This document shows positions 6,311-63,892 of a stretch of DNA of 64,000 nt, piece by piece; position 1 is the first letter of the stretch; each line of letters starts with the position of its first letter. Position numbers and translations under genes: made by a program. The DNA is taken from the NCBI GenBank assembly GCA_017428055.1, contig JAFRRN010000094.1, positions 1 through 64,000 of the forward strand, read 5' to 3'. Below the pieces are notes generated by a model. That model was not told the DNA's origin and ran no database searches. It worked only from the letters and a program-made list of their open reading frames with translations. This DNA comes from Prevotella sp. Its GTDB lineage: Bacteria > Bacteroidota > Bacteroidia > Bacteroidales > Bacteroidaceae.

Positions 6311-8071
6311 ATGAAGAATTTATCGAAAATAACTCTTTGGGGATTGCTTGCGCTCCCACTCTTCACCGCTTGCTCCGACGATGAAGTAAACAACGACCTT
6401 GGACCACTGGTGCCCGCAGAGGACGTGTTTGGCAAAGCCAACGACGTGTTCAGTGCCGAAGAGTGGTACCCTGGCGGCCAGTTGGGGACGACGGAGAAAG
6501 CCAGCTACTCCGCCGCCGCGCCCGCCGTTGAGAACATCGAGGGCATGGAGGAGGACTTCAACACGGGTGAGGACTTCTTCGAGCACCTCTATACCTTCGA
6601 GCAGGCACCGCGCAAAGGCCTCGGACCGGCATGGGTACGCAATAGTTGCATCCATTGCCATCCCTCCTACGGACATGGCAAGCGACAGACAGAGTACCGT
6701 GCCAACACGATAGGCAACGGCTATCTGCTCGTCATCTACCATCCCGACAACAACGCTTATATCTCTGAGGTGACGGGAATGCCGCAGACACAGGCGATGT
6801 CGCCCTTCAAGGCTCCCATCGACGAGAACCAAATCACCATCGACTGGCGGCCCGTGGCATCCATGGAGAGTGGCTTGTCGATGACCTTCCCCGATGGTGA
6901 GAGCTATTCGCTCATCTATCCCGAGGTGCGTATCCCCCAGTCGGCATTCAATACCAACCCCAAACCCGAGAATTATGACGTGCGACTGGAGTCTACGATA
7001 GGTGTCTATGGCACAGGTTTGCTCGATGCCCTCAGCGACGAGGACATCCGTGAGCAGTGGCGAGCCGAGGCTCCATACGTGGACTTGAACCCCGCCATGT
7101 GGGACAAGGACGCCAACGATTTCAAGGCTTCCGCTTATTACAGCGCACCATACAATGACCTTGGCATGTTCCGTGGCACACACGGCCCCGTCAAGCGATT
7201 CACTTATGCCATGACACGCGGCTCTCTGCAAGACGGCGCGGGGGCAAACGCCATCTGGAACATCACCAACGTGACCCGTTCCGACCGCCATTGGCTCTAC
7301 ACGACACCCGCCTGGGCGAAGGCGCAGAGCGAAGACGCGGAGGTCATCAGTTATATCAAGGACAATGGTGCGTCGGAGTCGAGCATCCTGCATCCCTACT
7401 ATGCCGATGGCACCAACGAGGGTATCGCCGCACGGGTGAATGATATCCTCAGTATCGCTTCCATCTCCAAGAAGGAGACCTTTGACAATTACCTATTCAA
7501 GGGTGCGCCCTACAATGGCGAGGAGGAGATGACCGACAAGCAATATTACCAATTTATGGTATGGCACAGGGGACTGGCAGTGCCCGCCGCCCGCAACCTG
7601 AACGACTCCGACGTGAAACGTGGCAAGACGCTCTTCACGCAGATGGGCTGCGCACAGTGCCACCGTCCATCGTGGAAGACGGGCAACGACAATATGTGGG
7701 TGGATGCCAGCATCAAGGCGTATGCCGATGCCAACGGCTTGGCAAAGGACGGCGACTACACGAAGTTGTTGCCCAAATACCCCAATCAGACCATTTGGCC
7801 GTACACCGACATGGTGCAACACCGCCTCTTCATGGTCAATGACATCCGCACGGGGTGGTGTCGGACAACGCCATTGTGGGGACGCGGCCTCTCCCGACTG
7901 CTCACCGGTGCCGACGACCGTCTGCATGACTGCCGCGCGCGTACCATTGTGGAAGCCATCATGTGGCACGGCTACAGCAAGCAGTCGGATGCTTACGACA
8001 GCACGGTCAAGTTCTATAACCTACCAAAAGCCGACCGCGATGCCGTCGTAAAATTCATCGAGTCGATCTGA
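6311..8071 (+). CDS. Di-heme c oxidoreductase lipoprotein (DHOR family)
   Basis: From the methionine at 6311 the protein is 586 residues long, with a lipoprotein signal (lipobox FTAC, Cys about residue 18). It contains two heme c attachment sites, CIHCH at residues 113-117 and CAQCH at 447-451, as in the family annotated as di-heme or thiol oxidoreductases, often found beside imelysins. It would act in the periplasm or on the outer membrane in electron transfer, possibly as a peroxidase or in iron redox chemistry. An in-frame upstream extension to 6209 starts inside the repeat array and is rejected because MKNLSKITLWG begins a standard signal. Its stop TGA shares one base with the next start codon, so it is translationally coupled to ccsBA. 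Confidence 0.88.
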   Translation: MKNLSKITLWGLLALPLFTACSDDEVNNDLGPLVPAEDVFGKANDVFSAEEWYPGGQLGTTEKASYSAAAPAVENIEGMEEDFNTGEDFFEHLYTFEQAPRKGLGPAWVRNSCIHCHPSYGHGKRQTEYRANTIGNGYLLVIYHPDNNAYISEVTGMPQTQAMSPFKAPIDENQITIDWRPVASMESGLSMTFPDGESYSLIYPEVRIPQSAFNTNPKPENYDVRLESTIGVYGTGLLDALSDEDIREQWRAEAPYVDLNPAMWDKDANDFKASAYYSAPYNDLGMFRGTHGPVKRFTYAMTRGSLQDGAGANAIWNITNVTRSDRHWLYTTPAWAKAQSEDAEVISYIKDNGASESSILHPYYADGTNEGIAARVNDILSIASISKKETFDNYLFKGAPYNGEEEMTDKQYYQFMVWHRGLAVPAARNLNDSDVKRGKTLFTQMGCAQCHRPSWKTGNDNMWVDASIKAYADANGLAKDGDYTKLLPKYPNQTIWPYTDMVQHRLFMVNDIRTGWCRTTPLWGRGLSRLLTGADDRLHDCRARTIVEAIMWHGYSKQSDAYDSTVKFYNLPKADRDAVVKFIESI

Positions 8072-48550: not shown

Positions 48551-49453
48551 ATGCAAAATAGTTACTATAGATTATTCTTGTATATTGCTACTGCTATCGT
48601 TGCCGCTGCAGGCTTGTATGTGGCTTGGCTCTATGTAATCAGCCATCGTGATATGGGATTTACCATTGAATGGAAATTCTGGAAGTCCACCATACTTTGG
48701 CCAGCCCTTAGTGTCATAGGCTTTTTCCTTCAGTTTATTGACTGGGAACATACCTCGTTCACAGAAGGCTGGGTGGTAAAGGATAGCTGGGGACGCGAGA
48801 GGTTTGTGGAAAACAATGACATCATGAGCGTACTTTGGGGAAATTGTCTTTTTCCCCTGATAGCCCATCTCTTTCTTATTCCATGTATATATGGAGCGGT
48901 ACTTTACTACATCATCATCACCCCATTGGCTTTGGTCAATGCGTTCATTCCCTATATCGCCGCTGCCGTTTGCGTTATTGTTCCCGTGTTGTTTTATATC
49001 ATTTCAAGGAATTTTGACGAAAAGTCATATTCCCTTGTATGGTTGGTCGGGGCGACGCTCATTTTTCTCTTGGTAGTTGGATTGTTGTTTCTCCCAACCA
49101 CTATTGATTTTAGTTCCCACAAGGAAGAAACGACTCGCAGCGAAGTGGTGAAACGGAAGGCAATAGGACAAATAGCTGTGAAAGTGCAAATGGCCAACCT
49201 CCGTACAGGTCCTGGGGCAAATTATGCTATCTGTACACGACCCGATGGAACGAAAGTGCAAGCTCCCAAGGGCGAGCGTTTCGAGGTCTTGGAACTCAAG
49301 GGCAAATGGTATAAGGTGTTTCTATCCGATGGAAGGGAGGCATACATCAAGAAGTCCCTCTGTACGAAGATGGAAACATATACTGCTACGAAAGATGAAG
49401 ATTCACCATTAAACAATGATAGTATAGGCGAAATCCCGAAAAGCCTAAAATAG
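48551..49453 (+). CDS. Polytopic membrane protein with C-terminal SH3b-like domain
   Basis: A 300-residue protein. Helices lie at about 7-30, 45-62, 95-120, 125-150 and 160-185. The C-terminal part (about 205-275) carries the SH3b hallmark MANLRTGPGANYAI and WYKVFLSDGREAYIKKSLC. SH3b domains often bind peptidoglycan or act as docking modules; here the domain follows the last helix and is followed by a polar tail. It starts a run of small envelope genes (48551-50925) with short spacings. Confidence 0.7.
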   Translation: MQNSYYRLFLYIATAIVAAAGLYVAWLYVISHRDMGFTIEWKFWKSTILWPALSVIGFFLQFIDWEHTSFTEGWVVKDSWGRERFVENNDIMSVLWGNCLFPLIAHLFLIPCIYGAVLYYIIITPLALVNAFIPYIAAAVCVIVPVLFYIISRNFDEKSYSLVWLVGATLIFLLVVGLLFLPTTIDFSSHKEETTRSEVVKRKAIGQIAVKVQMANLRTGPGANYAICTRPDGTKVQAPKGERFEVLELKGKWYKVFLSDGREAYIKKSLCTKMETYTATKDEDSPLNNDSIGEIPKSLK

Positions 49454-49483
49454 AGTAGGGACAAACTAACAATATAATGAATT

Positions 49484-54671: not shown

Positions 54672-54746
54672 ATGGCTTATATGAAATTGATAGCAAGGCG
54701 GAATCCGAAAAGCCAGAAAAGAGTAGGGAAAATAAAAAATTACTAA
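54672..54746 (+). CDS. Possible 24-residue basic peptide
   Basis: A short frame from ATG at 54672 encodes MAYMKLIARRNPKSQKRVGK followed by four residues and TAA, ending four bases before the cysteine-rich gene. The first half resembles the N-terminus of Bacteroidetes HU-like proteins, so it may be a fragment of one or chance. No promoter is visible. Kept at low confidence because of its position at the head of the peptide cluster. Confidence 0.2.
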   Translation: MAYMKLIARRNPKSQKRVGKIKNY

Positions 54747-54750
54747 AGTT

Positions 54751-54858
54751 ATGTTGACAGATGTTTATACTGTAAACGAAAAAAATTGCAGCAATGCGAC
54801 AGCGGGTTGTTGTGATGTTTTCGGTTATGGCTGTTCTTGCGCTTGCAACAATAGCTAA
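54751..54858 (+). CDS. Cysteine-rich candidate RiPP precursor peptide (35 residues)
   Basis: ATG at 54751 opens a 35-codon frame ending TAA at 54856-54858. The first 12 residues (MLTDVYTVNEKN) would be a short leader. The rest contains six cysteines, at 13, 20, 21, 28, 30 and 32, in the pattern C-x6-CC-x6-C-x-C-x-C, and ends GCCDVFGYGCSCACNNS. There is no hydrophobic signal. The gene sits first in a one-strand cluster with two radical SAM/SPASM maturases, and a strong hairpin follows 16 bases after its stop, as is usual between a highly expressed precursor and its enzymes. Upstream in-frame TAA at 54733-54735 rules out a longer ATG form. An overlapping 48-codon frame (54794-54940) is considered less likely. 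Identification is by context. Confidence 0.6.
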   Translation: MLTDVYTVNEKNCSNATAGCCDVFGYGCSCACNNS

Positions 54859-54874
54859 AGAAACTTTTAGTAGT

Positions 54875-54900
54875 GGAAGGTGTGTTAAGACGCACCTTCC
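54875..54900 (+). terminator. Strong hairpin between peptide gene and maturation genes
   Basis: ggaaggtgtg (54875-54884) and cgcaccttcc (54891-54900) form a 10-bp stem with one G-T pair and a six-base loop. It lies 16 bases after the stop of the cysteine-rich peptide and 23 bases before the next start. There is no long T run, so it may be a partial terminator or an mRNA-stabilising 3' end. Confidence 0.7.
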
Positions 54901-54923
54901 GTTTCATCGAGATGATTATAGTT

Positions 54924-56015
54924 ATGGAACATACATTTGAAAAAATATCAATTTTGGCAAAAAAATACTTGCTTTTTATCGTGTTATGTTGTATTGTCCT
55001 TGTTCTTTTGTTGATACTTCTTTTTGCTGGAGAAAAAATACAAGAAGATACATGGTCACGTAATTTTATCAGTGCTTTGTTGGGTGCTGCCACAGTTTCA
55101 GTTATCACATATTCGCTTTTGAAAGGTCAGGCTAACAATGAGAGTGCGGTAGAACAAAATAAGAAAGTTTTTGAAAATCGATTGAATGCTTATGAGTCCT
55201 TTTTGTCCATATTACAGAATGTGGTGGTCAATAATGTCGTGGATGAGAAGAGTGAAAAGCTTTTACAATTTGGAATTGCTACAATTGGTATGCACGCAGA
55301 TTCCGAAGACATGGTGGTAATAAGCAAAAACCTAAAATATATTCTTCAAAAAATTAAAGTAAAAGAACGTGCAGATGGATCTATCTGGAATGAGTTGATG
55401 GAGATAGTAAATGTTTTCCATCACTCCCTTTACGTGAATAAAGAACGTAAGGTAGATAGTTGTATGCGTAAATCACTGCGTAATTTTAGTGGGTTATGTG
55501 TGGATGAAAATTATGAGATTTTGCAGTTTGTTGAGTGTTTGTTGTCTTCTTTCCATTTTGATTCTTTCATTGCAGGTCAATGCTTATTTTATAGTATTCC
55601 TGTTAAAAAGTATTATGTTAAGAACAGAAATGTTCCCAGAAAGTTGTATGTTACATTGCGCATAGATAAGATTACAGATGATATGCACTATTCAGGTATT
55701 ATTGCCATATATAGTGAGTCTGCAAACTATGAACAATTACGTGAGATGATGAAATCTCCTGATTTATGGATAGGTTCTGATAAAATAACTTTTATAGAAA
55801 AATCTGAGTTAGGATTAGGTATTAATGTTGTTGACAAAGCTTTTGTTTTGTCTTTTGAAAAAAAGAAAGATATGGAATTGCAATCTGCCGTATGTGATGT
55901 TTTTATGTTTATGCATCCAATATGGGCAGAAAAAGGGGTATCATATTTACGAAAAGATAAAGATGGAAGGCTAATACGAGAAATTCCCAGTAGCAAACTA
56001 CCATTAACGAGTTAA
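54924..56015 (+). CDS. Two-helix membrane protein of the peptide cluster
   Basis: From the methionine at 54924 the protein is 363 residues. Two helices at about 13-34 (LLFIVLCCIVLVLLLILLFAG) and 46-64 (FISALLGAATVSVITYSLL) are followed by a coiled-coil-like stretch (NNESAVEQNKKVFENRLNAY) and a soluble domain of about 270 residues with no motif I recognise. The start was chosen after the hairpin at 54875-54900. It lies three bases before the first radical SAM gene. It may anchor the maturation complex, export the product or give immunity; nothing in the sequence decides between these. AT-rich like the whole cluster. Confidence 0.7.
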   Translation: MEHTFEKISILAKKYLLFIVLCCIVLVLLLILLFAGEKIQEDTWSRNFISALLGAATVSVITYSLLKGQANNESAVEQNKKVFENRLNAYESFLSILQNVVVNNVVDEKSEKLLQFGIATIGMHADSEDMVVISKNLKYILQKIKVKERADGSIWNELMEIVNVFHHSLYVNKERKVDSCMRKSLRNFSGLCVDENYEILQFVECLLSSFHFDSFIAGQCLFYSIPVKKYYVKNRNVPRKLYVTLRIDKITDDMHYSGIIAIYSESANYEQLREMMKSPDLWIGSDKITFIEKSELGLGINVVDKAFVLSFEKKKDMELQSAVCDVFMFMHPIWAEKGVSYLRKDKDGRLIREIPSSKLPLTS

Positions 56016-56018
56016 ACG

Positions 56019-57347
56019 ATGAGCGAAAAACTTGAATCATATAATATTTTTCCAATCCCTGTTGGTGATTTTTTCGACAATGATCCAGAAGCATGTTATT
56101 TGGTTTATGCACCTCTGAAAAATCAATTCTTTCTGGCAACATCAAGACAAGTGGAATATCTGGAAAAACAGATTAAGCAAAGGGAAATAGGAGACCTACT
56201 CCAAAATCTGATGGATGCTGAATCCCTACCAACCCATGAGATTTCAACTGACACTTTTTGTACATTGCATCTGTTACTGAATGAGAAGTGCAATTTTCAT
56301 TGTACATATTGTTATTCGGCAGCGGGTCGTTCTTCGGTCGAACTTACGATGAACGAGGTTAAACCTTTGCTCGATTTTTTCTTGTCGGGAAAAAGGAAAG
56401 CAGTCAGAGAGAGGACAGTGATGTTTATGGGGGGCGGTGAACCCATGCTTTCCTGGCCTTTACTTAAACAGTCAACACTATATGCAAAACATGTGGCAGC
56501 AAAGGAAAATGTTACAATCCACTTTTCTTTGACGACTAATGGCTCTCTTATGAATGATGATGAGTTATTATTCTTGAAGGAACATGATTTTACAGTACAA
56601 ATATCTTTCGAAATACTACCAGAAGTCCAACGTGTACAAAGAGGCCCCTATATTCAAGTGGCAAAGAATTTACAACACTTGACAGAGAAGGGAATAAAAA
56701 ATTATGTTCGTTCAACGATTACAGCAGAAAATGTAGACCGCATCCCTGAAATGGTGGATTATTGTCATAAACATTTTCCTTTGGTTTGTAAAATGAGTTG
56801 TCAACAAGTGGTGGATCCTGCATACTTCACCTCGACCGCCATTGTAGATAACTTTTTCCAGCGTTATTTCCTATCATACCAAAAGGGTACTCGCCGTGCC
56901 GAATTGTATGGAATTACATTACACTCATCTTCTTCTCATTTGCTTAACTATTCTCATCGTGATCGTTTTTGTTATAATTTGTTGTGTCTCACCCCCTATG
57001 GAACGCTGACATTATGTCCGGATGTGTCATCTCCTGATGAACCAGATTATCAGGAATCCGTGATAGGTGAGCTGAAAGACAATAAAGTCTTGTTTCATCA
57101 AGAAGCATTTGAAAGATTGACCAGTGGCAATATCTATACTATTGAGAAATGCAAGACGTGTTATGCTCGGTGGAATTGTGGTGGTGGGTGTCCAAGTAGT
57201 CGAAGGGTATACTCAACAGATATATTTGATGCAATATGCAATCATTACCGCAGAATGTTACGTAATAGTCTTATAGAAGAACTTGCAAGAAAGCATAAAA
57301 TGGCAACAGGAAATGATTTCTATACAGATATTGCGTCAAAATTATAA
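56019..57347 (+). CDS. Radical SAM/SPASM peptide maturase 1
   Basis: A 442-residue enzyme. An N-terminal domain of about 75 residues (YNIFPIPVGDFF, LKNQFFLATSRQ) is shared with the next gene and may recognise the leader peptide. The radical SAM core begins with the [4Fe-4S] motif CNFHCTYC (Cys91, 95, 98) and has GGGEP at 138-142. The C-terminal SPASM domain has the cluster ligands CLTPYGTLTLCPD, then CKTCYARWNCGGGC (Cys378, 381, 387, 391) and Cys407. SPASM enzymes of this shape install thioether or carbon-carbon crosslinks in peptides. It lies between the membrane protein and its paralog with gaps of 3 and 11 bases. Confidence 0.9.
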   Translation: MSEKLESYNIFPIPVGDFFDNDPEACYLVYAPLKNQFFLATSRQVEYLEKQIKQREIGDLLQNLMDAESLPTHEISTDTFCTLHLLLNEKCNFHCTYCYSAAGRSSVELTMNEVKPLLDFFLSGKRKAVRERTVMFMGGGEPMLSWPLLKQSTLYAKHVAAKENVTIHFSLTTNGSLMNDDELLFLKEHDFTVQISFEILPEVQRVQRGPYIQVAKNLQHLTEKGIKNYVRSTITAENVDRIPEMVDYCHKHFPLVCKMSCQQVVDPAYFTSTAIVDNFFQRYFLSYQKGTRRAELYGITLHSSSSHLLNYSHRDRFCYNLLCLTPYGTLTLCPDVSSPDEPDYQESVIGELKDNKVLFHQEAFERLTSGNIYTIEKCKTCYARWNCGGGCPSSRRVYSTDIFDAICNHYRRMLRNSLIEELARKHKMATGNDFYTDIASKL

Positions 57348-57358
57348 AAGATACTGTT

Positions 57359-58723
57359 ATGTTTTTTCCAAAACTTTATTACTTAAACATCTACCCTATT
57401 GGAGTGGGAGATTATTGGGGCGTTGAAGAATCGCGTGTGTTTTTGGTTTATTCGCCTATGAATGGACATTTCTCATTGGCATCGCCCCAAATGGTAAAAG
57501 AAATGGAAGTTTATGTAAACGGGGCATCGGATGATAAAACTCAAGAAAAGATGTTTAATCTATTTCTCTCTAAAGGATCATTTCCTATTCATCACTTACC
57601 CAAGACGCCCCATGACTTATATCAAATAGACATTTTAACAAATTATACGTGTAATTTCAATTGCATATACTGTTATTCTTCGGTAGGCAGATCAAATCAA
57701 CAGGTAGATTTTAGATGTATAAAGGCAGTCGTTGACTATCTCTTTTGTTCTGGTAAGAAACAGGAAAATCCTTATATAATCAATTTTAGTGGTGGCGGAG
57801 AACCTTTGTTGAGTTTTAGTCTAATTAAACAAACCATAGAGTATATTAAGCAAGTGAATCGTGGAAGAGGTTATTATTATAATATTGGAGTAGTAACAAA
57901 TGGTAGCGTTATTACGCCAGAAATAATAGATTTCTTTCAAGAGAATAATGTCAATATGGCAGTGTCTTTTGAGATACTTAAACGTTTTCAAGATAAAGAG
58001 AGGGGTTCTTATTATCGTGTTGTTTCTAATCTTGACATGATGTTGCTGCGTAACTTTTCATTTGGGATTCGGACAACTTTTACGCCAGAGAGCGTTTTAT
58101 ACATGTGTGAGATGATTGAAGAGATGGCTCATCGCTTCCCAAAAATAAAAAAAGTCGTATTTGATGTCGTACTCGCCCCTAATCTATTCCCCAATCCAGA
58201 AACATTGAAAGATTATTATGATAGCTTTCTTGAAGAATACTATAAAGCTAAAACGTTGGCAACACAATATGGCATCGTTCTGGAGAGTGTGGCTCTTGAA
58301 ACAATGTCGATGATACGAGATCGTACTTGCGAAGGAAAAATAGTGCTGACACCCGTTGGGAGTATTTCTTCATGTGCCCGAGTGTCATCCCCGAAAGAAG
58401 ATAGATACAATGACTACCTTTTTGGAACAACGAATGATGGCACACTTATTTTTGATGAAAACCGTTTTTCCAATATTATCAATCATAACAATATTTACTC
58501 TCAACCAATGTGCCATAATTGTTTTGCAAAATGGAATTGTGGCGGTGGATGTAGATTGTTCCATGATTCTTTTGATGAGCGATTTGAAAAAGTTCGATGT
58601 GAATTCATGCGTAAGGCATTGAAAAGGGAACTACTGGAGGTTATCAGTAAATCTTTTTATCAGGCAAAAGGTAAAGATTTAAAGGAATATATAACAAACA
58701 AAATAAAACAAAACGTATTATAA
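57359..58723 (+). CDS. Radical SAM/SPASM peptide maturase 2 (paralog)
   Basis: A 454-residue paralog of the preceding enzyme in the same order: N-terminal domain (LNIYPIGVGDYW, MNGHFSLASPQM), radical SAM motif CNFNCIYC (Cys98, 102, 105) followed by YSSVGRSN, GGGEP, and a SPASM domain with GSISSCARVSSP, then CHNCFAKWNCGGGC and a final Cys. The N-terminal domain and the shared Y-S-x-x-G-R-S after the cluster motif show a local duplication. Two such enzymes for one peptide suggest two kinds or two rounds of crosslink. Highly AT-rich. Confidence 0.9.
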   Translation: MFFPKLYYLNIYPIGVGDYWGVEESRVFLVYSPMNGHFSLASPQMVKEMEVYVNGASDDKTQEKMFNLFLSKGSFPIHHLPKTPHDLYQIDILTNYTCNFNCIYCYSSVGRSNQQVDFRCIKAVVDYLFCSGKKQENPYIINFSGGGEPLLSFSLIKQTIEYIKQVNRGRGYYYNIGVVTNGSVITPEIIDFFQENNVNMAVSFEILKRFQDKERGSYYRVVSNLDMMLLRNFSFGIRTTFTPESVLYMCEMIEEMAHRFPKIKKVVFDVVLAPNLFPNPETLKDYYDSFLEEYYKAKTLATQYGIVLESVALETMSMIRDRTCEGKIVLTPVGSISSCARVSSPKEDRYNDYLFGTTNDGTLIFDENRFSNIINHNNIYSQPMCHNCFAKWNCGGGCRLFHDSFDERFEKVRCEFMRKALKRELLEVISKSFYQAKGKDLKEYITNKIKQNVL

Positions 58724-58729
58724 TTTTTG

Positions 58730-60061
58730 ATGAAACAATTGAATGTCCTATTTGTTATTCCTTGTTACGAAACTTATGGAATGTCGGGACATTATGTCAT
58801 GCCGATGGGAATTCTATATGTGTCTGCTTATGTAAAACAGAGTGGAGTTTGCATGGTTCACACGTTAAATCTCAATCATATTGAAGGAGATGAGTACCAA
58901 GTTTTAAGAGATTATTGTATTATTCATGATATTCACGTAATAGGAGTCGGAGGATTATCGGGAGAATACAAAGATTTGGCACGTATTGTTGGATATGCCC
59001 GAAAGATTAATCCGAAGATATTTATTGTTGTGGGAGGAGGAATCATGACAGCTGCACCAAAGGTTGCTATGCGGGCTTTTGAAAACGCAGATTGTGGTAT
59101 CATAGGAGAAGGTGAGTTGACAACTGTGGAGTTATTACAGACATTAACTAATGGTGGGTCTCTTGCATCTGTCAGGGGCATCATATACCGTGATGGTGGT
59201 ATGTTACGCAAAACACTCCCTCGTGCAGAGATTATGGAATTGGATAGTTTACCTTTTCCTGATTATGAAGGTTTCAATTACAAAGAATACCTTGAACAAA
59301 ATCCAGATTTAAGTGATGATGGGAAACAGTATACTCCCATATCGGTTATTGGTGGGCGTTCTTGTAAATATAACTGTACGTTTTGCTTTCATCCGTCTGG
59401 AACGAAATATCGTCAACGTTCATTAGATTCCATTTTTTCTGAAATTGATTATTTGATAGCCCACTATAAAGTCTCATATATTGCATTGCGTGAAGAACTC
59501 TTTGCTACTGACAATAAGCGTGTCTATGATTTCTGCCAGCGTATAAACAAATACGATGTTGATTGGTCTATTCAATTACGAATTGACAGTATTAATCAGG
59601 ATTTGGTAGACATTTTGAAAAACACTCGATGTCGATATGTTTTTGTTGGTGTAGAGAGTGCCGATGATATGATTTTGAAAAGTATGAAAAAGGGAGTCAA
59701 ACGAAATCAGATAGAACATGCTTTGGAAATGCTAAAGAATGCAGGTCTTAACTCGCGTTCAGGAGTTATTTTTGGTGACACAGAGGAAACATATGAATCT
59801 GCACAATATACTTTGAAATGGTTTTATGAGAATCGCAAACAGTATAGATTGTATGTGGATATGATAATTGCTTTTCCTGGAACAGACCTTTATGAACGTG
59901 CTTGCAAAAATAATGTCATACCAGATCCCGTACAATTTCTTAAAGACGGATGCCCTATCGTGAATATATCTAAAATGACGAATGAGGAGTTTAGGCAACT
60001 GGTAAAAGATGTTGAGTGCATTAATTACAGAAAATATAATGTGAAAAACTATCCACAGTAA
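58730..60061 (+). CDS. B12-binding-type radical SAM enzyme
   Basis: A 443-residue protein. Residues about 1-140 have the Rossmann-like layout of cobalamin-binding domains (LNVLFVIPCYETYGMSGHYV, then IHVIGVGGLSGEYKD, FIVVGGGIMTAAP, DCGIIGEGELTTVELLQ). The typical DxHxxG ligand motif is not seen, so cobalamin, if bound, may be base-off. The radical SAM core follows with CKYNCTFC (Cys212, 216, 219) and the ISVIGGRSCKYNC opening usual for class B enzymes, and continues to a C-terminal helical end. Relatives methylate unactivated carbons or do ring chemistry. The start is the ATG at 58730; its stop shares one base with the next start (TAATG). Confidence 0.85.
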   Translation: MKQLNVLFVIPCYETYGMSGHYVMPMGILYVSAYVKQSGVCMVHTLNLNHIEGDEYQVLRDYCIIHDIHVIGVGGLSGEYKDLARIVGYARKINPKIFIVVGGGIMTAAPKVAMRAFENADCGIIGEGELTTVELLQTLTNGGSLASVRGIIYRDGGMLRKTLPRAEIMELDSLPFPDYEGFNYKEYLEQNPDLSDDGKQYTPISVIGGRSCKYNCTFCFHPSGTKYRQRSLDSIFSEIDYLIAHYKVSYIALREELFATDNKRVYDFCQRINKYDVDWSIQLRIDSINQDLVDILKNTRCRYVFVGVESADDMILKSMKKGVKRNQIEHALEMLKNAGLNSRSGVIFGDTEETYESAQYTLKWFYENRKQYRLYVDMIIAFPGTDLYERACKNNVIPDPVQFLKDGCPIVNISKMTNEEFRQLVKDVECINYRKYNVKNYPQ

Positions 60062-61143
60062 TGAATAAAATTTGGTTTTTTAATGATGAGGCATTTAATC
60101 GCCTCTGCGACTTAATGTACATTGTCTCACCATCAATGGAAGAGAATGCAATGGCCAACTACCTTCGACAGTATTGGATGAGCCTTGGAGCTTCAGTCAA
60201 GACGGATGTTATGGGTAATGTCCATGCTTCATTTAAATCTCAAGAGACATTAAATATTGGGATTGTGGCGCACATGGATACTGTTGCTGTGCAGATTACA
60301 AAGATATTGTCGAATGGATTATTGCAAATGCGTCATATTGGTCTTAAACCTCATACTTTACTTGGGCAATCTATGAAAGTTCTTACTAAAAATGGTATCA
60401 TTGATGGAATTATTGGATTCGATCCAACTTCACAATATAGTCAGCCAAAAGGGCTTGTTGATGAAGATCTTTGGATGGATATAGGTGCGTCTAACTATGA
60501 TCAGGCTAAAAAGATGGTTGAAATAGGAGATTTGGCCGTGTTTGCTCCACGTGTTGTAGAAATGGGTCAAGGATTTATTTGTGGAACTGCAATAGACGAC
60601 CGCATCGGACTCTTTGTCTTAAATGAGTGCATGAGATGGTTTTCCGTGAATAGTGTGTCTGCTAATCTTCATTTCATGGGGTCTGTTCAAGAGGAGGTCG
60701 GGTTGCGTGGTGCTTCCATATTAGCAGCAAATACGCCAATGGATGCCTGTTTTGTAATAGATGTCGATTATGCAACCGACACACCTACACCTCATGATAA
60801 TCAAATGGGAGTTCTTTGCATGGGGCAAGGAATAGGAATGCATGTAAAATCTGACAATAATCCAGTATTACGGAGGATATGTAAAGAGGTGGCAGATGGT
60901 GAGGGAATCAGCTACCAATTATCTCTGGGGCGTTTTATTTATGGTGGTACAGATGGGGCTTCGCTCCAAATCCAACAAAAAGGAATTGCAACGGTAAACA
61001 TAAATATACCTTGTCGCTATATGCATTCTCCTATTGAGATGTGTAATAAGCAGGATGTGGAAAATGCGATACATCTTCTGGTTGCTGTCATACGAGAATT
61101 GGCAAAACATAATCAAAACAGTTTTATACCAGGAATTGACTAA
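60061..61143 (+). CDS. M42-family aminopeptidase
   Basis: A 360-residue metallopeptidase of the M42 (glutamyl/deblocking aminopeptidase) family. Metal and catalytic positions are visible: AHMDTV (His71, Asp73), GTAIDDRIG (Asp179/180), GSVQEEVGLRGA (Glu211/212), FVIDVDYATD (Asp234 or 236) and CRYMHSP (C-terminal His). The PDZ-like insert of the family is at about 95-160. M42 enzymes make large tetrahedral cytosolic shells that trim peptides from the N-terminus. In this cluster it could remove the leader or trim the modified peptide. The start overlaps the preceding stop. Confidence 0.9.
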   Translation: MNKIWFFNDEAFNRLCDLMYIVSPSMEENAMANYLRQYWMSLGASVKTDVMGNVHASFKSQETLNIGIVAHMDTVAVQITKILSNGLLQMRHIGLKPHTLLGQSMKVLTKNGIIDGIIGFDPTSQYSQPKGLVDEDLWMDIGASNYDQAKKMVEIGDLAVFAPRVVEMGQGFICGTAIDDRIGLFVLNECMRWFSVNSVSANLHFMGSVQEEVGLRGASILAANTPMDACFVIDVDYATDTPTPHDNQMGVLCMGQGIGMHVKSDNNPVLRRICKEVADGEGISYQLSLGRFIYGGTDGASLQIQQKGIATVNINIPCRYMHSPIEMCNKQDVENAIHLLVAVIRELAKHNQNSFIPGID

Positions 61144-61146
61144 TTC

Positions 61147-61623
61147 ATGAAAGTATTACTTGTTACAACCTCCACTAATTCCGTGAGAACAGTACTTGAG
61201 CAGAATGTAGAAATAGAATTATCTACGATAGACTGTAATGTGTATGGGTCTCACACATTAGAAATGATAAAAAGAGTCATTAAAAATAGTAATTTAGATT
61301 TTTTAATAACTTATCGTTGTCCTATTGTTTTTCCAAAAGATATCTTTGAAAGTCCTCGGCTTGGTGCGTTTAATATTCATCCTTCACTATTACCAAAATA
61401 TTCAGGTTTAAATCCATGGGAAGAGATTTTTCGGAATCATGAACGTAAAAGTGGAGTCACATTGCATCAAATAACAGAGAAGGTTGATGCTGGGGAAATA
61501 GTTTTTCAATATCCTTTTATAATAAAGAAATCTGATACGATAGACTCTGCACGTATAAAAGCAGATCAATTATCAGCGAAATTGGCTTTGAACCTTATTG
61601 AATATTTGTGTTGTTTATACTGA
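61147..61623 (+). CDS. Short formyltransferase-fold protein
   Basis: A 158-residue protein of the formyl transferase N-terminal fold (PurN/Fmt group). The catalytic triad is kept: Asn76 and His78 in FNIHPSLLPKYSG and Asp114 in VDAGEI. It is about 50 residues shorter than PurN (about 210), lacking part of the N-terminal segment around the phosphate or GAR site, so it probably acts on another amine. Near-identical motifs occur in enzymes that formylate amino sugars or peptide amines. It is four bases after the aminopeptidase gene and closes the cluster. Confidence 0.8.
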   Translation: MKVLLVTTSTNSVRTVLEQNVEIELSTIDCNVYGSHTLEMIKRVIKNSNLDFLITYRCPIVFPKDIFESPRLGAFNIHPSLLPKYSGLNPWEEIFRNHERKSGVTLHQITEKVDAGEIVFQYPFIIKKSDTIDSARIKADQLSAKLALNLIEYLCCLY

Positions 61624-62968: not shown

Positions 62969-63892
62969 ATGGAAGAAGATGACAACAAGTATGTGAGATT
63001 CGACTGGGCCGCGAAACGGATGTTGCGTGACAAGGCAAACTTCGGGGTGTTGGAGGGTCTTGTCACCGTGCTTTTGGGTGAGCCTATCCACATCGTTGAG
63101 ATTTTGGAGAGCGAGAGCAACCAAGACTATATCCTTGGAAAATACAACCGTGTGGACATCAAGGCGAAGAACAGCAAGGATGAGATTATCATCGTGGAAA
63201 TCCAACAGGCAAGGGAGTTGTATTATTTAGAGCGCATCCTTTATGGCGTGGCGAAAGCCATCACCGAGCATATCTCCCTTGGGCAGAAATACAATCAGGT
63301 TAAGAAGGTGTATTCGATTAACATCTTGTATTTCGACCTTGGTCAGGGGGCGGATTATCTGTATCATGGGCAGAATAAGTTTGTGGGAGTGCATACGGGT
63401 GATACGTTGAAGATCAACACTCGTGACAGGGACTTTATCCGCATGAAACCCGTGGAAGAGGTGTTCCCCGAATATTATATCATCCGTGTGAATGAGTTTA
63501 ACAAGGTGGCGACAACCCCTCTTGAGGAGTGGTTGGACTACCTGAAGACGGGACATATCAAGGAAGACACGCAGGCACCAGGCTTGGAAGAGGCTCGTGA
63601 GAAATTGCAATATCTGCGGATGAGCAAGGAGGAGCGGCAAGCATACGACTGGCATATTGATGAGGTGATGGTGAATAACGACATGGTTGATACCGCGAAA
63701 ATGGAAGGCAGGGCCGAGGGTCGTGCCGAGGGTCGTGCCGAGGGTCGTGCTGAAGGTCGTGCTGAAGGAATTATCGAAGGTCGTTTGGAAGCGACAAAGG
63801 AGAATGCCCGAAAGATGAAGTCTCATGGATTGCCGACGAATACAATAGTTGAGATTACGGGTTTGACGGCTGAAGAAGTAGAGGCATTATAA
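62969..63892 (+). CDS. Rpn/PD-(D/E)XK nuclease-family transposase protein
   Basis: A 307-residue protein of the PDDEXK_2 (Rpn, recombination-promoting nuclease) family. The N-terminal motif RFDWAAKRMLRDKANFGVLE and the nuclease residues Asp63, Glu77 and Gln79 (VDIKAKN, then IVEIQQ) are in place. The C-terminal part has five tandem copies of the tetrapeptide GRAE (about residues 250-270) encoded by 12-bp repeats, which can change in number, then a helical end with HGLPTNTIVEITGLTAEEVE. These proteins cut DNA and promote RecA-independent recombination, and some members vary by in-frame repeat changes. Full length for the family. Confidence 0.92.
   Translation: MEEDDNKYVRFDWAAKRMLRDKANFGVLEGLVTVLLGEPIHIVEILESESNQDYILGKYNRVDIKAKNSKDEIIIVEIQQARELYYLERILYGVAKAITEHISLGQKYNQVKKVYSINILYFDLGQGADYLYHGQNKFVGVHTGDTLKINTRDRDFIRMKPVEEVFPEYYIIRVNEFNKVATTPLEEWLDYLKTGHIKEDTQAPGLEEAREKLQYLRMSKEERQAYDWHIDEVMVNNDMVDTAKMEGRAEGRAEGRAEGRAEGRAEGIIEGRLEATKENARKMKSHGLPTNTIVEITGLTAEEVEAL
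63716..63775 (+). repeat. 12-bp tandem repeat in the Rpn gene
   Basis: Units of the form gccgagggtcgt, later gctgaaggtcgt, repeat about five times, each coding for Ala-Glu-Gly-Arg. Since the unit is a multiple of three, slippage changes protein length without breaking the frame. Confidence 0.85.

Follow-up and report, generated by a model that had tools for sequence, protein, structure and literature searches.

What a 35-codon, cysteine-rich open reading frame (ORF) is doing just ahead of a packed run of radical S-adenosylmethionine (SAM) enzyme genes is the question raised by a locus of Prevotella sp. (assembly GCA_017428055.1, contig JAFRRN010000094.1, positions 1 to 64,000 of the forward strand; this whole 64,000-nucleotide stretch is referred to below as the window). 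A reading of the letters alone, made without database searches (the sequence-only reading), had taken the ORF for the precursor of a ribosomally synthesized and post-translationally modified peptide (RiPP). We consider it probable that the block encodes a member of an undescribed family of radical-SAM RiPPs, in which the peptide would be crosslinked by SPASM enzymes, changed by a B12-type radical SAM enzyme, trimmed by an M42 peptidase and possibly given a formyl cap. The combination is not described in the open-licence literature searched, most subscription papers lying outside that scope. Radical-SAM RiPPs are a known kind of system, and the clade described here is a variant of it rather than a new principle; its most surprising part is the arrays of SPASM paralogs carried by related clusters.

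A conserved cysteine-rich precursor accompanies the SPASM genes

The ORF (54751-54858, plus strand) encodes the 35-residue peptide MLTDVYTVNEKNCSNATAGCCDVFGYGCSCACNNS, which contains six cysteines and has the core GCCDVFGYGCSCACNNS. An eight-row SPASM alignment was run against a named genome collection (best 80 of 448 loci) and against IMG/VR (79 loci), and the loci with the strongest SPASM matches were then read for short ORFs. Precursors accompany the SPASM genes in 11 of the 11 loci of the window's clade that have readable upstream DNA (the window, L264, L031, L263, L030, L260, L262, L023, L032, L110 and L111), as seven distinct sequences; L210 starts inside its SPASM B gene, with the upstream part off the contig and any precursor not readable. 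The precursor comes ahead of the first SPASM gene, sometimes with a membrane gene in between, and in L030, L260 and L262 two SPASM genes stand on its far side. A gene-encoded peptide thus adjoins, and is conserved with, its tailoring enzymes, as is expected of a RiPP, and the assignment of the cysteine-rich ORF as precursor gains support. Homologous clusters lacking a small cysteine-rich gene, which the sequence-only reading had named as evidence that would count against it, were not seen among the readable clade loci, and the comparison across genomes that it had suggested for peptides beside the maturases revealed homologous peptides with five core cysteines in common.

The core motif common to the clade (CCD...G..C-x-C) occurs in three types, namely CCD-x-CGGC-x-CNN in L023, L030, L031 and kin (type 1), CCDCFGGGCRC in L032 and L110 (type 2) and CCDVFGYGC[S/T]CACNNS in the window and L264 (type 3), the last two precursors sharing the stretch GCCDVFGYGC[S/T]CACNNS. 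Precursor lengths range from 28 to 35 residues (28-30 in the branches with SPASM arrays), and six of the seven distinct sequences start with M-[I/L]-T. As a control, the core motif was found to end an ORF in 5 of the 159 SPASM loci of the named-genome and IMG/VR search sets (L030, L031, L032, L110 and L111), all of them clade members, and in none of the remaining 154. The patterns of the three types matched 0, 2 and 0 stretches of viral contigs, respectively, the two being the L110 and L111 records. Between the window and L264, 16 precursor codons are identical, 11 synonymous and 7 non-synonymous, with 7, 1 and 16 differences at codon positions 1, 2 and 3 and a single amino-acid change (S/T) within the 17-residue core; L030 differs from L262 by four synonymous changes and from L260 by one, with no others. 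These codon changes point to selection acting on the peptide.

Catalytic residues are kept across the enzyme set

Downstream of the precursor, and on the plus strand, follow genes for a membrane protein (54924-56015, with an alternative in-frame ATG at 54912), SPASM radical SAM enzymes A (56019-57347) and B (57359-58723), a radical SAM enzyme with a B12-binding domain (58730-60061), an M42 metallo-aminopeptidase that is a probable leader peptidase (60061-61143) and a short formyltransferase of 158 residues consisting of the catalytic domain only (61147-61623). From the membrane protein to the formyltransferase the genes lie on a single strand and are separated by 3-11 bases or overlap by one base, an arrangement as in one operon. 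Pfam matches above curated cut-offs comprise Radical_SAM in three proteins, B12-binding, Peptidase_M42 (E 2.7e-67) and Formyl_trans_N (E 1.3e-20). ORFs, Pfam and folding together bear out the layout given by the sequence-only reading (cysteine-rich gene, hairpin, membrane protein, enzymes). Its starting position, 54672, falls on a 24-codon ORF (54672-54746) that we dropped as a gene, this ORF having no Pfam or NCBIfam match and overlapping a cis-regulatory RNA match; the 35-codon cysteine-rich gene that it described is real and begins at 54751.

The CX3CX2C motif and seven C-terminal cysteines, as found in SPASM maturases, are invariant in 32 of 32 aligned SPASM rows, an alignment that omits the longer fourth L023 enzyme, L210 and L260-L264. 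SPASM A and B are 60.5% and 60.6% identical to their L264 copies. A structure model of SPASM B (predicted local distance difference test, pLDDT, 92; predicted template modelling score, pTM, 0.90) has its best fold match in the Protein Data Bank (PDB) with CteB (5wgg, E 1.5e-16, TM 0.63, over an alignment of 461 columns including gaps; 5why), followed by TigE, and the modelled fold thus appears ranthipeptide-like. Residues 4-70 of the model, where a leader-binding (RRE) domain would be expected, form a helix, strands and two helices, this N-terminal domain having been compared only within the whole-protein alignment. Six SPASM proteins were scanned with the NCBIfam models, and PapB ranks first for all of them except SPASM A, for which it comes second; the nearest models to the window proteins are the PapB, nif11 and SCIFF maturases, at about a third of their cut-offs or less, and the StsB, RumMC and GggB models give at most 51 bits (cut-offs 625-720). 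Viperins and PDC-M51A came up in PADLOC, matches that we attribute to the similarity shared by radical SAM proteins in general.

The B12 radical SAM enzyme is 63% identical to that of L210 and 52% to those of L032 and L110, with CX3CX2C kept in 4 of 4 aligned rows. Residues H71, D179, E211, E212, D234 and H322 of the M42 protein, which we take to form the active site, are invariant in 5 of 5 rows, as expected of the M42 family, and so are N76, H78 and D114 of the formyltransferase, presumably catalytic, in 4 of 4 (these three alignments omit L264 and L024). The formyltransferase scores below the family cut-off for methionyl-tRNA formyltransferase (TIGR00460, 67.6 bits against 201.5, catalytic domain only). 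Comparison across loci supports the precursor, its constant pairing with SPASM genes and the intact state of the catalytic residues.

Related clusters carry arrays of SPASM paralogs

The closest relative of the window cluster, L264 (G1134), has the precursor, the hairpin and the same enzyme order, with 60-63% identity in the three radical SAM enzymes (63% in the B12 enzyme), 45% in M42 and 41% over 105 residues in the formyltransferase; the last is fused in L264 to a protein-kinase-like domain (6361-8046). L210 has SPASM B, B12 enzyme, M42 and formyltransferase in this order, at 48%, 63%, 53% and 38% identity. B12 enzyme, M42 and formyltransferase therefore recur together in L264 and L110, each with a precursor, and in L210 from SPASM B on. 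Beside these three genes L110 carries five SPASM genes, L032 combines six SPASM genes with a B12 enzyme and a formyltransferase, and L031 has an M42 gene.

In a 35-row tree (which omits L210, L260-L263 and L111), window-type SPASM genes form one clade of 31 (93/85), and L209, L024, L033 and L034 fall outside it. In two trees, the genes of L023, L030 and L031 fall into four orthologous classes of three members each (100% bootstrap), the fifth array position being not well resolved (82-83%), and those of L032 and L110 into five classes at or above 99-100% bootstrap, one of which contains two L032 genes. Window B and L264 B belong to the class of L032_5 and L110_4 (100/98); window A and L264 A pair with each other (100/100) beside the rest of the clade, at an exact place that is poorly supported (88/33). 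The array branches thus have five or six different SPASM paralogs (six in L030 and L032) for a single precursor of 28-30 residues. The trees depict the paralogs as ancient and well separated, which favours each having a function of its own. One SPASM enzyme per cysteine was rejected as a general rule, the window and L264 having two SPASM enzymes for five core cysteines; because these two clusters have two and L030 and L032 six, one enzyme for one crosslink is a hypothesis for the array branches only. An assembly line in which some five SPASM paralogs of the array branches each install one crosslink, the window being a compact form with two SPASM enzymes and a B12 enzyme that makes a related product, trimmed to the first crosslink, N-formylated and spread by phage, strikes us as improbable taken as a whole. 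Arrays of five to six SPASM enzymes on one such short peptide would allow direct study of site choice and order by radical SAM enzymes.

Several further proteins accompany the arrays. A large protein is inserted in the SPASM arrays of L032 (7550-9574) and L110 (9274-11205), 28% identical over 600 columns, with an RCK potassium-channel domain match above the cut-off in L032 and below it in L110. A domain of ~200 residues without a Pfam match stands beside the arrays of L031 (7360-7998), L030 (13544-14185) and L023 (8034-9941), where it is fused to a SPASM enzyme; its identity with the window membrane protein was rejected (hhalign probability 0.1). AAA ATPases with an AAA_lid_6 domain adjoin two otherwise different clusters (L264, 9351-11231; L023, 3556-6231).

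Beyond the clade, differing cysteine-rich ORFs adjoin the enzyme gene in the single-SPASM loci L033, L024, L034, L209, L025 and L037, and M42 genes adjoin SPASM and cysteine-rich peptide genes in the sister systems L024 and L033. In these two (L024, 4500-5350; L033, 9274-9524) an M42 gene is found with one near SPASM relative and cysteine-rich peptides that have a VSEL/VSEI-type leader, and L024 has an integrase nearby. Twelve more distant SPASM loci were scanned for cysteine-rich ORFs, with a fitting one beside the enzyme in two (L025 and L037) and none in L017, L027, L028, L035, L038, L040, L043 and L213-L215, so that distant SPASM relatives do not all show the pairing. Loci with SPASM matches near 210 bits occur in G728, G730, G736, G831 and G835 (three of them being L213-L215), with a B12 enzyme 21-24% identical, and no cysteine-rich ORF was found beside the SPASM gene in the part of this set scanned. 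The window family is one branch of a larger, non-universal set of systems that couple a SPASM enzyme to a cysteine-rich peptide.

Proposed maturation and points against it

We infer each chemical step of the following scheme, the order of the steps and the role of the membrane protein. The 35-residue peptide would probably be made in excess of its enzymes, because a hairpin follows the precursor gene and a regulatory RNA precedes it. The N-terminal domains of SPASM A and B likely hold the leader MLTDVYTVNE, and the two enzymes would modify the C-terminal core, perhaps working together in the way of TrnC/TrnD; the most likely outcome is thioether bonds between cysteine sulphurs and nearby residues, the chemistry of ranthipeptide maturases. 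A further change, most simply C-methylation, would come from the B12 radical SAM enzyme, after which the M42 aminopeptidase would digest the leader from its N-terminal end and halt at the crosslinked core, leaving a free amine that the formyltransferase may cap. The membrane protein could serve in immunity or export. Crosslinking and leader trimming by the cluster enzymes are plausible; N-formylation is the weakest step of the proposal, suggested by the kept asparagine, histidine and aspartate of the putative active site.

Several observations weigh against this reading. The genomes of L023, L030 and L032 gave no M42 match (E 1e-10 for L032), and the B12 enzyme and formyltransferase have no match in loci L023, L030 and L031; trimming and capping by these genes are therefore not family-wide. 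The sixth cysteine of the window precursor (C13) is missing from L264, which leaves five cysteines as the conserved core of every type. Relatives just outside the clade (L209, which reaches 428 bits against the SPASM alignment, and L024, L033 and L034) have cysteine-rich peptides of other sequence as judged by eye. The window SPASM proteins score far below the named maturase families, at 111.0 and 112.9 bits for PapB (NF047865, cut-off 340) and 98.4 and 88.1 bits for the SCIFF maturase (TIGR03974, cut-off 425), and the linkage type therefore cannot be read from family membership. Finally, a secreted peptide would usually come with an exporter, and none was seen: the Pfam scan of all window cluster genes holds no transporter, in keeping with the sequence-only reading, which had remarked on the lack of an ATP-binding cassette (ABC) exporter, and no ABC transporter was noticed in the other clusters' ORF lists, which were read by eye, not every ORF being domain-scanned.

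Comparison with known systems

The cluster resembles ranthipeptides (PapB/freyrasin, SCIFF/CteB) in having a SPASM radical SAM enzyme beside a cysteine-rich peptide, and PapB links cysteine to aspartate or glutamate (PMC9413430). Unlike ranthipeptides, the clade has two to six SPASM paralogs per precursor and precursors of 28-35 residues, and the window branch adds the B12 radical SAM enzyme, M42 and the formyltransferase. Two SPASM paralogs per cluster are also found in the sactipeptides thuricin CD (TrnC/TrnD) and ruminococcin C (RumMC1/RumMC2). TrnC and TrnD form a complex and act jointly (PMC12093266), and by analogy may serve as a model for window SPASM A and B; ruminococcin C likewise involves two enzymes (PMC8188230). 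Sactipeptide clusters differ from the array branches in their other accessory genes, and arrays of five to six are not mentioned in the text consulted.

The ChrA/ChrH/ChrI/ChrP system, whose host genus is Chryseobacterium, is like the window cluster in its short precursor with a C-terminal cysteine motif, its membrane protein and its M42 peptidase, and unlike it in using a DUF692 modifying enzyme instead of radical SAM chemistry, in the motif itself and in having an epimerase. The published account of this ChrA/ChrI/ChrP RiPP, with a short precursor ending CPACGMG, a membrane protein and an M42 peptidase (PMC10214503), supports the trimming logic of the window cluster.

Within the same order (Bacteroidales), radical SAM RiPP loci are abundant and few products are known; a survey analysed nine clusters, mostly with double-glycine (GG) motif precursors and peptidase-containing transporters, the latter present in all but BGC3 and BGC5 (PMC10352776). 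BGC5 resembles the window cluster in its lack of transporters and in its two radical SAM enzymes, which are accompanied by a pseudo one, and it differs in its long-core precursors and LanC-like genes. Unlike the GG-leader systems with peptidase-containing transporters, the present clade has no noticed exporter and no double-glycine leader in any of the seven precursors, where GG occurs only inside the core. The clade gives a searchable precursor signature in Bacteroidales, seems to manage without the usual exporter and has one copy carried by a phage.

Alternative explanations for the product

Three alternatives concern what the peptide does and are compatible with a RiPP origin. One is an antibacterial RiPP that serves in competition, immunity being conferred by the membrane protein; this is possible, though we lean against it. 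The accessory, mobile distribution of the clusters would fit, as would the membrane protein directly after the precursor in the window and L031 and the protein with a hydrophobic N terminus downstream in L264. This membrane protein has one strong and one weaker predicted N-terminal helix and matches no family above cut-off. Against the immunity role, the proteins are only weakly alike (28% over 86 residues, pairwise E 5e-6, for the L031 protein at the same place; 20% over 104 residues, E 0.03, for that of L264), no tblastn match at 1e-5 appears in loci other than L031, and no membrane gene stands between the precursor and the next SPASM gene in L023, L030, L032 and L110; that no exporter was noticed also speaks against this role.

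A cofactor-type product, for which the peptide would be the scaffold of a small intracellular redox or metal cofactor, is rather unlikely. In the pathways of pyrroloquinoline quinone (PQQ) and mycofactocin, a SPASM enzyme, a short peptide and a dedicated peptidase work in this way. The mycofactocin peptidase is MftE (PMC10885120), and the window cluster differs from both pathways in precursor core, enzyme number and peptidase family. Such a product would explain the lack of an exporter (no ABC transporter was noticed by eye in the ORF lists), the cytosolic-type aminopeptidase, the small size of the precursors (just 28-35 residues) and the short-chain dehydrogenases present in L031, L030, L263, L260 and L261. 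No dehydrogenase match at E 1e-5 was found, however, in the window at 50-64 kb or in L264, L210, L023, L032 and L110, the conserved core consists of cysteines, and the lack of a SPASM gene match in the 35 other same-genus genomes, with one phage-borne copy, fits an accessory trait better.

Less likely still is a metal-binding peptide, a metallophore or metal buffer in which remaining thiols and modified residues chelate metal; methanobactin, for instance, has a copper role. The five conserved core cysteines are closely spaced, and ChrA is a cysteine-motif RiPP whose modifying enzyme family also makes methanobactin (PMC10214503), but no metal transporter or regulator was noticed in the ORF lists read by eye, and thioether chemistry would consume the thiols.

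The remaining alternative would make the small ORF, instead of a precursor, a leader peptide that senses cysteine, with attenuation of the operon by the hairpin. In its favour, each of the seven clusters folded has a strong hairpin after a short cysteine-rich ORF. It is very improbable, as residues other than cysteine are conserved too (the M-I/L-T start in 6 of 7, CCD and G), the cysteine codons vary synonymously while the peptide is kept, the downstream genes are maturase-like rather than genes of sulphur metabolism, and the cysteine-rich ORF follows the enzyme gene in L024, L033, L209, L025 and L037 (it precedes it in L034).

Distribution and transfer

SPASM A matched 2 of 60 relatives at 1e-20, its own genome and G051, and a SPASM gene match was found in 0 of the 35 other same-genus genomes. 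SPASM B matched 5 of 295 genomes of the order, and the eight-row alignment 3 of 395 genomes of the phylum at 1e-30, its own included in both counts; in the families of three hits the alignment matched 8 of 123 genomes at 1e-60 and 3 of 19 and 3 of 399 at 1e-80. Viral contigs scanned with SPASM A alone gave nothing, and with the alignment yielded L110 and L111. L110 is a 29-kb contig with large and small terminase subunits, a weak head-tail adaptor match, an integrase and a DNA polymerase, which makes its copy of the cluster phage cargo; the same element is recorded again as L111. In L110 (1-17233), L192 and L193 the cluster lies between the integrase and the packaging genes, followed by a transposase-like ORF and UmuD/UmuC-like genes. 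Matches in phage and plasmid records (8 and 28), all below 60% identity and none above 26.5% among those listed, were set aside as general SPASM relatives.

The sequence-only reading had also proposed acquisition by transfer because the block is AT-rich. Its GC content is indeed low (33-40%) relative to the immediate flanks (47-53%), but other parts of the window are equally AT-rich (50-53 kb, ~40% GC; 43-45 kb, 37-41%; 1-2 kb, 36.5%), so that low GC alone is weak evidence and base composition was rejected as proof. Support for transfer comes from the patchy distribution and the phage-borne copy, not from composition. Within 50-64 kb of the window, no integrase was noticed among the ORFs listed. 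The right-flank gene has a homologue in 18 of 60 same-genus genomes, its own included; the other five flank proteins have no match at E 1e-5 in 14 other loci (L218-L231, with flanks of at most ~1.5 kb), and no empty site can therefore be defined. A transposase gene of the PD-(D/E)XK nuclease family lies slightly downstream of the cluster (62969-63892).

Hairpin and regulatory RNA

The hairpin between the precursor and the downstream genes (54875-54900, plus strand) folds within 54859-54920 at -20 kcal/mol (z -3.69, 0 of 200 shuffles as good). A hairpin lies 3' of the precursor in all seven clusters folded (the window, L023, L030, L031, L032, L110 and L264), beating all 200 shuffles in six and 199 in L030, with a z of -6.26 in L264. 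It may be an attenuator or the 3' end of a precursor transcript.

Upstream, a match to the DUF805b cis-regulatory RNA (Rfam RF02914; 54695-54729, plus strand; 49.6 bits, gathering score 35.6) lies 21 nt ahead of the start of the precursor gene. A spacing of 20-22 nt is common to the window, L031, L263, L032 and L110, among them four of the seven clusters folded; in L264 the match is weak (14.3 bits) and ~60 nt away, and none is reported at the gathering score in L023, L030 and L260. The RNA is rare, with at least 10 matches above cut-off across 20 genomes, of which two lie in this window (counts are lower bounds, 150 candidates per genome having been scored). Because it is found elsewhere upstream of genes for assorted small or secreted proteins, in one case of a GG-type peptide ORF, its role would seem to be one of general regulation, not specific to RiPPs; the association with the cluster gives this orphan RNA a context for testing. 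The second match in the window (49425-49461) lies 22 nt before a 75-residue ORF, and no further copy turned up among the 150 of 1572 candidates that were scored in this genome. In a same-genus genome (L269, 1501-1700), a DUF805b copy stands 21 nt before a 51-residue GG-type peptide ORF.

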